Source of the DNA: SAR116 cluster bacterium
GTDB lineage: Bacteria > Pseudomonadota > Alphaproteobacteria > Puniceispirillales > Puniceispirillaceae
Reading direction: 5' to 3'
DNA: 12,183 nt
NCBI GenBank assembly: GCA_002722385.1
Contig: PBLR01000004.1
Location: 1-12,183, forward strand
The notes under the pieces were generated by a model that did no database searches, had not been told where the DNA came from, and saw nothing but the letters and a program-made list of their open reading frames with translations. Positions 7,205 through 11,386 of this stretch are shown piece after piece; positions within the stretch are counted from its first letter, which is position 1, and the number at the start of each line of letters is the position of its first letter. The translations under genes were made by a program, and so were the position numbers.

Positions 7205-7447
7205 ATGTCTTCAAAAAAAGATGAGCATTGGGCAAAGACCAAATCGCTTACGTTTACCACATTGGTAATCTGGGCGATTGTGGCATTTGTCATCCATTGG
7301 TTCGGGGAAGGTCTGAATTCAGATGCCTTTCCGGGGGCCTACTTCATGGCGGGCATGGGCTCACAGATAGCCTTTGCTGTATTGGTGTTTTGGTTTTCCA
7401 GCCGTCAGAACCAAATCGATGAAGAATTTGGCTTCGGCGAAGACTAG
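7205..7447 (+). CDS. DUF4212 protein, small subunit of sodium/substrate symporter
   Basis: An 80-residue protein matching the DUF4212 / sodium-solute symporter small subunit family in length, topology and position. Two membrane segments are visible (about residues 16-34 and 46-65), linked by a short loop with FPGAYFMAGMGSQ, a conserved-looking segment of the family. The N-terminus is charged (KKDEHWAKTK) and the C-terminus acidic (IDEEFGFGED). These small proteins are encoded directly before VC_2705-type symporters and are thought to be partners of the large subunit in the inner membrane. Here the stop overlaps the Shine-Dalgarno sequence of the large subunit gene (9 bp between genes), strongly suggesting paired synthesis. 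The start ATG follows a strong GAGGGGG site. An overlapping minus-strand frame (7054-7293) is a shadow. Confidence 0.93.
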   Translation: MSSKKDEHWAKTKSLTFTTLVIWAIVAFVIHWFGEGLNSDAFPGAYFMAGMGSQIAFAVLVFWFSSRQNQIDEEFGFGED

Positions 7448-7451
7448 GAGG
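7446..7451 (+). promoter_or_regulatory. Consensus Shine-Dalgarno of the symporter large subunit
   Basis: A perfect AGGAGG, 5 nt before the ATG at 7457. Its first two bases are part of the TAG stop of the preceding gene (7445-7447). This arrangement favours translational coupling and high expression. Confidence 0.8.
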
Positions 7452-7456
7452 CATAA

Positions 7457-9283
7457 ATGTTAAAACTAGATGGTGGTTTTATCCAAAATCTGGGCCGGGT
7501 GTACGGCTTGTACACGCTGGGCTTCCTGGGTTTTGTAATTCTGATGGCCATTCTTGAAGCAGCCGGTGTGTCAAACACAGTTATCGGCTGGCTTTTTGTG
7601 GCCTTCACCGTAGGTATCTATGCCATGATCGGGGTGTTGTCCCGGACCATGGAATCCAGCCAGTATTATGTTGCTGGCCGAGAAGTACCTGCTGTTTATA
7701 ATGGTATGGCAACAGCCGCTGACTGGATGTCAGGCGCGTCATTTATTGCGATGGCCGGGGGGATTTACCTCAAAGGTTATCCATATATGGCCTTCCTGGT
7801 CGGCTGGACAGGCGGTTATGTGCTGGTGGCGTCTCTGATTGCGCCTTACCTGCGCAAATTCGGCTGTTACACTGTGCCTGACTTCATCGGTACACGTTAT
7901 GGCGGCAACCTTGCCCGTTTGTGTGCGGTGATCATTCTGGTGGTGGCCTCATTCACTTATGTGACCGCACAGATTAACGGTACAGGTACAGTAGCGGCAC
8001 GTGCCCTGCAAATCCCGTTTGAATTGGGCGTTTGGATCGGTCTTGCCGGTATCCTGTTCTGTTCAATGCTGGGCGGTATGCGGGCGGTGACCTGGACTCA
8101 GGTGGCGCAGTATATCGTGCTGATCATTGCTTATCTGATCCCAGTGTTCTGGATGTCAAACAAGCTTGGCTATGGCCTGATCCCACATTTCGCCCAGTTC
8201 GGTGCTGTAGAGCGCGTTCAGGAACTGGAAGGTCTGCTGGGTGTCGGCACATTGCTGCCAACTGGTGAAGCTCAGGCTGAAGCTGGCAAGCTGGCCGCGC
8301 TGAAAGTTGGCATTAATGACGCCAGTGATTCGCTGATGGCGAAGTGGAAGTTCTTCACACTTGTGCTGTGTATGATGGCGGGTACCGCGTCTCTGCCACA
8401 CGTGCTGATGCGGTACTTCACCACATCTTCAGTAAAGGCTGCGCGTCAGTCTGTTGGCTATTCACTGTTGTTCATCTGCTTGCTGTATCTGACCGCCCCT
8501 GCGCTGGCCACATTCACCAAGCTGTCTCTGCTGGACCCGACTGTTGCCACAAGCATCATCGGCAAGTCTGTTGCTGAGGTAAGCAGCCTGGAATGGATTC
8601 AGCAGTGGAGCAATGTTGGCTTCCTGAAGGTTGTTGACGGAAACGGAGACGGCATTGTCCAGATCAATGAATTCTTCATGCGCGGCGATATCGTTGTGCT
8701 GGCAACACCGGAAATGGCCGGTCTGCCTTATGTGATTTCAGGTCTGGTTGCTGCCGGTGGTCTGGCCGCAGCGATGTCAACTGCTGATGGTCTGTTGCTG
8801 GCGATTGCGAACGCCCTGTCACATGATCTGTACTACAAGATCATTGACCCGAAAGCAGATACAAAGACACGTCTGATCGTGGCCCGCGTTCTGTTGCTGG
8901 TCATCGGTGCAGCAGGTGCCTTCGTGGCCTCTATGAAGCTGACAGGAATTCTGGGCGCGGTTGCCTGGGCGTTCTGTTTTGCCAATTCCGGTCTGTTCTT
9001 CCCGCTGGTCCTTGGTGTCTGGTGGAAACGGGCAAACCGTGCTGGTGCTGTTGCCGGTATGGTTGGTGGCTTCGCCGCAGGTGCATGGTATCTGTATATG
9101 GTTCAGTTTGCTGGCATGGCCCCATGGGCCGGTATTGACGGTCTGCGCTTCGGCATGATCGGTATGCCTGTCAGCTTGATTCTGATGGTTGTTGTCAGCC
9201 TGATGACTGAAGAGCCTGATGCAGAAACCCAGAAGATGGTCGAAGAAATCCGCGTTCCAAGCGGTAAGACTGTCGTACAGTAA
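7457..9283 (+). CDS. VC_2705/ActP-type sodium/solute symporter, large subunit
   Basis: A 608-residue inner-membrane transporter of the solute:sodium symporter (SSF) superfamily, close in style to VC_2705 and ActP acetate/monocarboxylate permeases. Seen: a YYVAGREVPAVYNGMATAAD segment and DWMSGASFIAMAGGIY (from residue 70), PDFIGTRYGG (141-150), a GTASLPHVLMRYFTT stretch, and STADGLLLAIANALSHDLYY, all typical of the SSF core. There are about 12-13 hydrophobic segments. It should import a small carboxylate with Na+; the substrate is not determinable. A hydrophilic loop near residues 240-290 and a loop holding an EF-hand-like sequence (394-405) are notable. Codons favour GGT, GTT and CTG more than in the flanking genes, as often seen in highly expressed genes. 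It follows DUF4212 by 9 bp and ends before a strong terminator. Divergence from the hyu operon suggests, but does not prove, a shared pathway. Confidence 0.93.
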   Translation: MLKLDGGFIQNLGRVYGLYTLGFLGFVILMAILEAAGVSNTVIGWLFVAFTVGIYAMIGVLSRTMESSQYYVAGREVPAVYNGMATAADWMSGASFIAMAGGIYLKGYPYMAFLVGWTGGYVLVASLIAPYLRKFGCYTVPDFIGTRYGGNLARLCAVIILVVASFTYVTAQINGTGTVAARALQIPFELGVWIGLAGILFCSMLGGMRAVTWTQVAQYIVLIIAYLIPVFWMSNKLGYGLIPHFAQFGAVERVQELEGLLGVGTLLPTGEAQAEAGKLAALKVGINDASDSLMAKWKFFTLVLCMMAGTASLPHVLMRYFTTSSVKAARQSVGYSLLFICLLYLTAPALATFTKLSLLDPTVATSIIGKSVAEVSSLEWIQQWSNVGFLKVVDGNGDGIVQINEFFMRGDIVVLATPEMAGLPYVISGLVAAGGLAAAMSTADGLLLAIANALSHDLYYKIIDPKADTKTRLIVARVLLLVIGAAGAFVASMKLTGILGAVAWAFCFANSGLFFPLVLGVWWKRANRAGAVAGMVGGFAAGAWYLYMVQFAGMAPWAGIDGLRFGMIGMPVSLILMVVVSLMTEEPDAETQKMVEEIRVPSGKTVVQ

Positions 9284-9448: not shown

Positions 9449-9814
9449 ATGAGCGCCCAGTTCCCGTTATTCATCATTATCATTGATTATCTGCTGGGCA
9501 TGATTATGTGGACGCTGATCGGCCGGTTCGGCATGTCTATTTTCATGCATGAAACATCCGATTTCTTTTTCATGAAAGTGTTTGTGAAATTCACCAATCC
9601 GGTGATTTTCCTGTTCAGGCCGGTGACGCCCGGCTTTTTGCTGGACAAGCTGCACCCGCTTTATGTGGCCTGGTTTTTTTATATGATCAGATTTTATGTT
9701 GTGCCGTTGCTGATGGGCTACAGCGTGATGGGGGTCCTGTCGTTTCCGCTTGAATCTGAAATATCGCTGGCGATTTATGAGATTGGCAATTTCCTGCTGA
9801 CCAAAAAGGAATAG
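9449..9814 (+). CDS. Small integral membrane protein of unknown function (distantly YggT-like)
   Basis: A 121-residue protein with one hydrophobic segment near the N-terminus (about residues 5-24) and one or two in the second half (about 69-98). Between them lies a distinctive NPVIFLFRPVTPGFL (50-64). The pattern 'membrane segment - NP...RPVTP - membrane segment' recalls YggT-family proteins (NP...P-R-P), but I cannot confirm membership. The tail ends in a charged LLTKKE. The ATG at 9449 has only a weak GGATAA-like ribosome-binding site. The gene stands alone between the symporter terminator and a convergent photolyase gene; its TAG stop lies inside the hairpin shared with that gene. No function is claimed. 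Confidence 0.75.
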   Translation: MSAQFPLFIIIIDYLLGMIMWTLIGRFGMSIFMHETSDFFFMKVFVKFTNPVIFLFRPVTPGFLLDKLHPLYVAWFFYMIRFYVVPLLMGYSVMGVLSFPLESEISLAIYEIGNFLLTKKE

Positions 9815-9828
9815 GCTTTCCTATTCCT
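9803..9828 (-). terminator. Intrinsic terminator for the photolyase/cryptochrome gene, overlapping both convergent stops
   Basis: A 9-bp perfect stem AGGAATAGG (9807-9815) / CCTATTCCT (9820-9828) with a 4-nt loop. Reading the minus strand, the stem runs into TTTTT (plus-strand AAAAA, 9803-9807), the mark of a Rho-independent terminator in that direction. Reading plus, no T-run follows. Both stop codons (plus TAG 9812-9814; minus TAG 9823-9821) sit within the stem. Confidence 0.75.
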
Positions 9829-11386
9829 CAAACAAAGACAATTGAGTTTTCGCGGGCCGGGTACGGCGTTGCGGCGGCCGGTGGCGGCTGCCCAAGCGGC
9901 GAAAGACCTGGCGGGCCATATCAGCAAATCCGTCTGTCTTGCGGGCTTCTGCCATACGGGTGCGGGCCTGTTTCATCGCCGTTTCATTCTCGACCAGAGG
10001 AAAAGGGTAATCCTGGCCCACCCGGCAGGAGGTGTGATGATGCAGATCAGAAGACAGTTTCCACGGTTCGTGAACCCATTGCGGGCTGAGGCCGGCCAGT
10101 TCAGGTACCCATTTGCGGATAAACCGGCCTTCAGGGTCCTGATCATAAGATTGTTTGACCGGATTATAAATCCGCAGCGTGTTGATACCGGTCACACCTG
10201 ACTGCATCTGCAGCTGGCTGTAATGAATGCCGGGTTCATAATCTGTGAACTGGCGGGCCAGATGCGGGCCGAACCGGCGCCAGTCAAGCCACAGATGATA
10301 GGCCGCAAAGCTGACCAGCATCGCGCGCATACGAAAATTCAACCAGCCAGTCTGCACAAGTGAGCGCATACAGGCATCAATAAACGGATAGCCGGTCTGC
10401 CCCGCACACCAGGCGGTAAAAAACGCTTCATTATGATGCGGCTCGCGCAGACCTTCAAAAGCCTGATGCATGCAGTGCTGATCCAGATCAGGCTGGTCTT
10501 CCAGCTTCTGCATGAAATGACACCGCCAGACCAACCGAGAGGAAAAGCTGGACAAGCTGCGTTTAAACATCTGATCCTGCGGGCCAAGCTGGGCACGCCG
10601 CTGGCTGACAGCCTGTTCTATCTCTCGCGGCGAGAAGGTGCCCCAGCTGAGGTGAGGCGACAGGCGGGAGCAGACCTGTGCAGCAGTCAGAGGAGAGGAC
10701 ATGCCGCGCTGATAGGTGCGGGCCCGCTGAACAAGAAAGCTGTCCAGCAGCACAAGACCTGCCTGACGGCCGCCTGGCTGGACAGACCCGGGCAGTGGCG
10801 GGCCGAACAGCCTGTCTGTTTTTGCCGGAATCGGCCCTGCCTCAACCCCGTGAACAGGCCGCAAACCCGCCGGCGGCGGCAGTACAGGCCGGGTCATCCG
10901 CTGGCTGCGTATCCCGGACCATTTATCCCGATTGGATAAGCCCCTGACAATGCCGTTGAAGGGATAGTCAACCAGCTCAATCTGACGGGCCCGGCACCAG
11001 CCGGCCACCGCCCTGTCCCGTGCATAGGTCCAGCTGTTGCCGGTTTCCTGATGAGTATGAATGGCGGTGATGACGAGCTGTTCTGCCAGGCCAGCGATTA
11101 TATCTGTTACCGCGCCTGTGCGCACGACAAGCGGCTGGCCAAGACGGGCGGTCTGGTCACGCAATTCCTGCAGACAGTCATGGATAAACCCCCATTGACG
11201 GCGAGAGGCAAAAGGCTGGACCCAGTAATCAGGTTCAACAACATAGAGTGGCAGCACAGCACAGCCAGAGGCGGCGGCCGCGCGCAACGGGGCATGATCT
11301 TCTGCCCGCAAATCCCGTTTAAACCAGACCAGATGAACAGGGCCTTGCTGTGTTGTTATCATCTTATCCGCACCTGAATGCCGCAT
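9821..11386 (-). CDS. Cryptochrome/photolyase-family flavoprotein with C-terminal clamp-type motif
   Basis: A complete 521-residue FAD protein of the photolyase/cryptochrome family. The N-terminal alpha/beta antenna domain starts VHLVWFKRDLR (17-27). The FAD-binding helical domain contains RLSPHLSWGTFSPREI (241-256), VWRCHFMQKLEDQP (286-299), TGYPFIDACMRSL (331-343), RIYNPVKQ (405-412) and FIRKWVPEL (422-430). It probably repairs UV-induced pyrimidine dimers with blue light, or acts as a light sensor. Compared from memory with E. coli PhrB, W287, W326 and W369 are kept (W277, W306, W359), but the WQW segment (W382/W384) reads LQM (392-394), so dimer-repair activity should not be assumed. The C-terminus has a basic proline-rich tail (about 496-513) ending in QLSLFEE, matching the bacterial sliding-clamp-binding consensus. 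ATG 11386 is used; ATG 11362 is a good alternative (MITTQQGPVHLVWF). No Fe-S cysteine cluster of the FeS-BCP type is evident. Confidence 0.9.
   Translation of the reverse strand: MRHSGADKMITTQQGPVHLVWFKRDLRAEDHAPLRAAAASGCAVLPLYVVEPDYWVQPFASRRQWGFIHDCLQELRDQTARLGQPLVVRTGAVTDIIAGLAEQLVITAIHTHQETGNSWTYARDRAVAGWCRARQIELVDYPFNGIVRGLSNRDKWSGIRSQRMTRPVLPPPAGLRPVHGVEAGPIPAKTDRLFGPPLPGSVQPGGRQAGLVLLDSFLVQRARTYQRGMSSPLTAAQVCSRLSPHLSWGTFSPREIEQAVSQRRAQLGPQDQMFKRSLSSFSSRLVWRCHFMQKLEDQPDLDQHCMHQAFEGLREPHHNEAFFTAWCAGQTGYPFIDACMRSLVQTGWLNFRMRAMLVSFAAYHLWLDWRRFGPHLARQFTDYEPGIHYSQLQMQSGVTGINTLRIYNPVKQSYDQDPEGRFIRKWVPELAGLSPQWVHEPWKLSSDLHHHTSCRVGQDYPFPLVENETAMKQARTRMAEARKTDGFADMARQVFRRLGSRHRPPQRRTRPAKTQLSLFEE

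Follow-up and report, generated by a model that had tools for sequence, protein, structure and literature searches.

The stretch of SAR116 cluster bacterium DNA that we analyzed, 12,183 nucleotides long and hereafter called the window, encodes a photolyase/cryptochrome-family protein that ends in a putative sliding-clamp-binding motif. Judged from the sequences compared below, the tail motif of this family usually matches the clamp of the host, being of the DnaN type in bacteria and of the PIP type in haloarchaea. The superfamily and the motif are each known; what appears to be new is their combination, the switch of the motif between domains of life, and the active site. We consider it very probable that the protein is a photolyase-superfamily enzyme whose tail would dock in the DnaN pocket and which would act on lesions at the replisome when lit. 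We infer actual binding of the QLSLF tail to DnaN and, with less confidence, an activity in light-driven DNA repair.

The coordinates of the gene and its parts are given in Table 1. The C-terminus of the translated open reading frame is ...RHRPPQRRTRPAKTQLSLFEE, and the same end of the 521-residue protein, QLSLF included, is also given as RRTRPAKTQLSLFEE. The last residues are KTQLSLFEE, with F519 encoded at 9830-9832, Q515 at 9842-9844 and the stop codon at 9821-9823; the motif is therefore exactly where the initial annotation had read it. A 99%-identical protein (P0001) has 513 residues, and so the more likely start is Met9, at position 11362, which would give a protein of 513 amino acids.

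Table 1. Photolyase-superfamily gene of the window and its predicted parts (residues are those of the 521-residue translation)
Feature	Positions	Strand	Residues	Basis or remark
Photolyase/cryptochrome-family gene	9821..11386	minus	521 as listed	open reading frame
DNA_photolyase domain PF00875, N-terminal	10967..11332	minus	19-140	Pfam
FAD_binding_7 domain PF03441	9950..10546	minus	281-479	Pfam; holds the family-specific active-site residues
Variable basic linker	9845..9883	minus	502-514	alignment; low model confidence
Putative sliding-clamp-binding motif QLSLF	9830..9844	minus	515-519	followed by EE and the stop codon

Both PF00875 and PF03441 score above the Pfam cut-offs, and Pfam detected no domain beyond these two in the window protein. 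Its AlphaFold model has a mean pLDDT of 92 and, when compared with the PDB, shows the photolyase fold, with TM scores of about 0.8 to several photolyases; the closest matches are 4u63, 6kii and 1np7, at 24-26% identity. The order of PF00875 before PF03441 and the predicted photolyase fold place the protein in the photolyase/cryptochrome superfamily. The last 23 residues have pLDDT values of about 43-54, a low-confidence tail in keeping with disorder, and the linker is basic, both of which agree with the flexible basic linker proposed beforehand. Among the genome loci compared (best 80 of 115), the closest relatives, at about 74% identity, are mostly from SAR116-cluster alphaproteobacteria. On the other side of its stop codon, the gene is convergent with a gene for a small protein (9449-9814) that has a YggT match below threshold, and within the SAR116-like group a relative of this small protein adjoins the family gene at five loci. 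Further along, positions 7205-9283 encode a sodium/solute symporter of the VC_2705 family, accompanied by a small subunit.

The bacterial clamp-binding motif has been defined as QΦx[LM][FL] or QΦx[LM]x[FL] (PMC11139829, available text; see also PMC13254535), and QLxLF is given among its highest-affinity forms (PMC11139829). The QLSLF of the window protein fits this definition and lies in the low-pLDDT tail. We then scored the tails of relatives, using the best 120 of 8,000 homologues, 80 of 115 genome loci and the window protein; 198 of these 201 sequences were usable, L047 (short) and L049 and L054 (cut by a contig end) being left out of the counts, and they were reduced to 131 representatives at <80% identity. 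Within the last 15 residues, the published pattern was found in 56 of the 131 representatives (shuffled mean 0.4, maximum 4). An extended pattern, in which position 2 may also be Met and a wider choice of hydrophobic residues is admitted at the end positions, was found in 101 (shuffled mean 0.8, maximum 5), and the loosest pattern, any Qxx[LMIF](x)[FLIM], in 122 (shuffled mean 3.9, maximum 10). In these comparisons the sequences are related, and hence not independent, and the shuffles control composition alone. Of the 101 extended matches, 55 are pentapeptides and 46 hexapeptides, and 53 of the 101 stop at the last residue of the protein; Leu occupies position 2 in 79 of them, and Ser occupies position 3 in 50.

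Short motifs do arise randomly, and shuffling the last 30 residues of the window protein itself gave a published-type motif in the last 15 positions in 360 of 100,000 cases. That the tail is a chance match or an unused relic is nevertheless exceedingly improbable: 101 of 131 (extended) and 56 of 131 (published) stand against shuffled means of 0.8 and 0.4, and the haloarchaeal relatives described below stand at 70 of 72 against 0.2. For a less selected sample, 241 genomes were drawn from the taxonomic class to which a Roseobacter genome belongs, and a family member (E <= 1e-60) is present in 30 of them. In the last 25 residues of these 30 proteins, the loosest, extended and published patterns occur in 24, 19 and 12, respectively, with shuffled means of 1.3, 0.26 and 0.13.

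An alignment was made of 66 chosen rows, of which seven are haloarchaeal. Beyond Y452-P453 its sole invariant column is the tail Q, and the 13 columns that precede this Q (494-506) have entropies of 1.6-3.5 bits. The initial annotation had advised aligning the C-termini of homologues, and had named an unchanged core with random C-terminal residues as the finding that would speak against it. The comparison did not go against the annotation: in the 131 representatives and in this alignment, the motif is kept beyond the variable linker, and some relatives are without it. Even the loosest form is absent from the last 15 residues of nine representatives; of these, P0111 misses the pattern narrowly, and in L041 and L056 a motif lies further in. 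One of the six alphaproteobacterial members of the less selected sample that do not match the loosest pattern ends in QFALDV. In the other five (L132-L136, from genomes of about 1.4 Mb), linker and motif are both absent, and the protein stops at a KHGSRK-like block or shortly beyond it. Four of these five lie near the Vibrio, Salinivibrio and Persicobacter members and L080 in the tree described below, where the deeper support is low; the plasmid members from Vibrio, Salinivibrio and Persicobacter and the Bacteroidetes member L080 also have no bacterial motif. The tail therefore acts like a module that may be absent.

As a control, we inspected the C-termini of E. coli-type photolyases. No form of the motif occurs within the last 15 residues of the 120 listed (best 120 of 7,999), a narrow set whose named entries are almost all Enterobacterales and which comprises 13 representatives at 80%. 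Likewise, no bacterial motif is present in six full-length paralogues (L081-L086) from genomes that also hold family members. One SAR116 genome was scanned for Q[LF]x[LF]F close to a stop codon; this gave 111 places, and 25 in-frame cases picked from the 100 listed were examined. Among these 25, the only long open reading frames were the two photolyase copies, the next longest having 89 codons, and the scan therefore shows that such ends are rare and does not reveal fellow clients. At 10 loci with Y-family polymerases, for which the longest open reading frame was taken as extracted, one polymerase (L292) ends in QLVLFE, in a genome whose family member ends in QISLFE; the other nine have no such end.

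The archaeal clamp is PCNA, and partners of PCNA carry PIP boxes. We therefore scored the last 20 residues of haloarchaeal relatives (best 120 of 2,848 for query L300, giving 72 representatives). The PIP-type pattern Qxx[LMI]xx[FYWH] was found at the tail in 70 of the 72 (shuffled mean 0.2, maximum 3), and the extended bacterial motif in none of the 72. Of the remaining two, P0230 has QSSFSTF and P0229 has nothing similar. Conversely, the PIP pattern is present in one of the 131 representatives of the first set. Outside the haloarchaea, the tree rows that match a loose PIP pattern are L083 (QRTLARY) and L308 (QRLLQKH), which we read as probable chance matches. In Haloferax, PolB1, PolD, RFC-B, Fen1 and RNase H2 have a PIP box of the form QxxLxxFx (PMC7776575, available text). 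Two plasmid-borne haloarchaeal RFC large subunits end in QSGLSDFM and QTGLGQF, and thus resemble the photolyase tails (e.g., QTGLGDFG).

Four Euryarchaeota metagenome-assembled genomes, which by inference belong to Marine Group II (MGII), have family members that end in QQKLF, QKKLF or QKTLF; three of these were included in the tree and fall inside the bacterial clade. In one of the marine Euryarchaeota genomes (G008), we examined the 46 places that could encode QxxLF followed by TRR. The long open reading frames with this end were those of the photolyase, a 519-residue RFC large subunit (QMKLF) and a 218-residue RNase HII (QQTLF); two unassigned frames of 89 and 82 codons were also obtained. 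The RFC large subunit and RNase HII are PCNA clients. In a second genome (G252), where 15 chosen places of 76 were examined, the photolyase and the RFC large subunit end in QKTLF and RNase HII in QQTLF, the last two proteins being recognized by their similarity to those of G008. For Sulfolobus, a client of PCNA has been described that carries QLTLF, resembling the bacterial motif (PMC3504372, available text).

These archaeal tails bear on whether the C-terminus is conserved for another reason, as a self-docking segment, a protease tag or a site for a partner other than the clamp. A hydrophobic C-terminus could in principle do any of these, and the linker is basic in bacteria; yet none of them predicts a PIP-type motif at the same place in haloarchaeal relatives, or marine Euryarchaeota tails that match their own RFC large subunit and RNase HII. 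Moreover, the AlphaFold model has no confident docked state of the tail (pLDDT of about 43-54) and gives intramolecular docking no support. We regard these explanations as very unlikely. The statistics of the family, the match to the type of clamp, the E. coli-type control and the low-confidence tail together make a sliding-clamp-binding motif, as first proposed for QLSLF, well supported at the level of sequence and model.

A tree of 119 rows was constructed from the window protein, the locus representatives, 15 randomly drawn listed homologues, 15 randomly drawn haloarchaeal relatives, and a selection of paralogues and of members from alphaproteobacteria and plasmids. Support was 1.0 for the haloarchaeal clade, 0.764 for the bacterial/MGII clade and 0.996 for the two joined. 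Outside the joined clade lie E. coli Phr with its allies, L102 (unclassified), L100 (class II) and three further paralogues, among them L105 and L106 of the PF04244 type.

E274, N341, M345, W384 and the Trp triad (E. coli Phr numbering) are residues that we take to have roles in the reaction of class I CPD photolyase, and N378 is presumably the neighbour of flavin N5. In all 75 bacterial/MGII members of the tree, the positions of E274, N341, N378 and W384 are occupied by R, F, H and M, and that of M345 by A, S or G; the window protein has R, F, A and M at the E274, N341, M345 and W384 positions. Of the triad, W306 and W382 are replaced and W359 is kept in all 75. The equivalents of W277, R342 and R344 are also retained in all 75. 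With those of D372, R344 and W359 kept, but with His in place of N378, the protein is a candidate for binding FAD and being photoactive. The 15 haloarchaeal members sampled all have R, F and A, all keep Asn378, and have W382 in 11 cases. Because key active-site residues are replaced by a family-specific set, the mechanism of class I CPD photolyases cannot be assumed, and any light-driven repair would probably act on a lesion or DNA form other than that of the class I CPD reaction. Of the photolyase label in the initial annotation, the superfamily domains and fold thus stand, and "photolyase" is to be read as a family name only.

Assignment to known classes was also attempted, and no NCBIfam model reached its cut-off with the window protein. 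For class I CPD photolyase, from which the active site differs, PRK10674 gave 178.6 bits against a cut-off of 506, and for cryptochrome DASH, TIGR02765 gave 164.5 bits against 317. The FeS-BCP (6-4) photolyases, of which we take the N-terminal domain PF04244 to be the mark, were rejected since the window protein has no match to it. The NewPHL/SPL proteins are likewise bacterial, the four named examples being from Dinoroseobacter, Methylobacterium, Erythrobacter and Rhodospirillum, but they have an inverted domain topology (PMC13274461, available text); the window protein has PF00875 and PF03441 in the ordinary order and is set apart from them by this description.

Relatives of the family are joined to a uracil-DNA glycosylase on seven Deinococcus plasmids, which were all that matched (L297, L307 and L314-L318), and this suggests a role of the family in DNA repair. 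Pfam confirmed both domains in two of the seven, and for the other five the fusion is based on annotation and the glycosylase active-site motif in the same open reading frame; in L314 the annotated start falls inside the photolyase part. QPxLF is present at the junction in six of the seven, and it may belong to the glycosylase, as a stand-alone Deinococcus UNG begins with MSETQAGLFD. When the neighbours at 80 loci were clustered, no cluster besides the family itself occurred in more than 13 loci, and none was identified as a replication gene.

The fusions and the active site bear in opposite directions on the possibility that repair has been lost and that the protein is a clamp-bound light sensor or replication brake, in which a light-set state of the flavin would alter occupancy of the pocket in competition with polymerases. 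The replacement of E274, N341, M345, W384, W306 and W382 in 75 of 75 members would fit such a sensor, and a comparable archaeal competitor for the clamp, TIP, is discussed in the available text of PMC4929162. The joining to a glycosylase suggests repair instead, the equivalents of W277, R342 and R344 are kept in 75 of 75, and the window protein has no further Pfam domain. We consider the sensor unlikely, although less so than the other uses of the tail mentioned above.

In the repair reading that we prefer, the QLSLF tail would occupy one clamp pocket, of the kind also used by polymerases, MutS and Hda, and so anchor the enzyme. Clamps remaining at forks, gaps and Okazaki junctions would in this way retain the enzyme, and the flexible linker would let the catalytic body scan nearby DNA. 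Light would drive the reaction or switch the state of the enzyme, and lesions in or behind the replisome would be acted on. In known clamp motifs the flanks are mostly acidic and the surround of the pocket is basic, and in bacterial clamp clients with a C-terminal motif the flanks or the free carboxylate often add negative charge (PMC11139829, available text). The motif of the window protein has EE downstream, whereas its upstream linker is basic, and this linker could therefore serve DNA binding. We give even odds to a broader proposal, namely that the cross-domain clade is a general clamp client in which the docking peptide has been swapped between a DnaN motif and a PIP box, and which, by means of its differing active site, would carry out light-driven replisome repair of a non-class-I lesion or DNA form.

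In the usual picture, photolyases reach lesions by diffusion. If true, the tethering of a clade to clamps would bring repair or sensing that depends on light to replication forks and gaps, clamp-dependent photoreactivation would be directly testable, and the clients of DnaN and PCNA would include a new class. Because the motif would change with the host clamp, the family would also illustrate, cleanly and in nature, how a short linear motif is rewritten across domains of life.

With the E. coli-type class I CPD photolyase PhrB (1dnp), the window family shares the N-terminal DNA_photolyase and C-terminal FAD domains; the 120 listed PhrB relatives have no tail with the clamp motif, and the bacterial/MGII members have other residues at the positions of E274, N341, M345, N378, W382 and W384. 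Pol II, Pol IV and Pol III alpha also have a clamp motif in a C-terminal tail, but they are polymerases, whereas the putative motif of the window protein is on a photolyase-superfamily member. The tails of the archaeal relatives are like those of the RFC large subunit and RNase HII, which together with NucS and NreA are archaeal PCNA clients; no photolyase is named as one in the available text of PMC4929162, PMC7776575 and PMC3504372. In agreement with the earlier remark that no well-described photolyase is known to be recruited in this way, our search of titles and listed abstracts, mainly of papers outside subscription, found no photolyase linked to DnaN or PCNA, and the papers examined that mention both topics, including PMC6759347, PMC9534484 and PMC7776575, make no such link in their available text.

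Other photolyase-superfamily genes were encountered beside those of the family. In three genomes, a second such gene is located about 2 kb from the family gene (L105 in G001, L103 in G005 and L097 in G006), and that of G001 is of the PF04244 type. The class II-type photolyase L100 (positions 466-2055), for which TIGR00591 gave 354 bits, below its cut-off of 550, comes from a marine Euryarchaeota genome that also holds a family member. It has SQQTLFKNAK about 20 residues from its end, in which QQTLF is identical to the end of the RNase HII of its genome.
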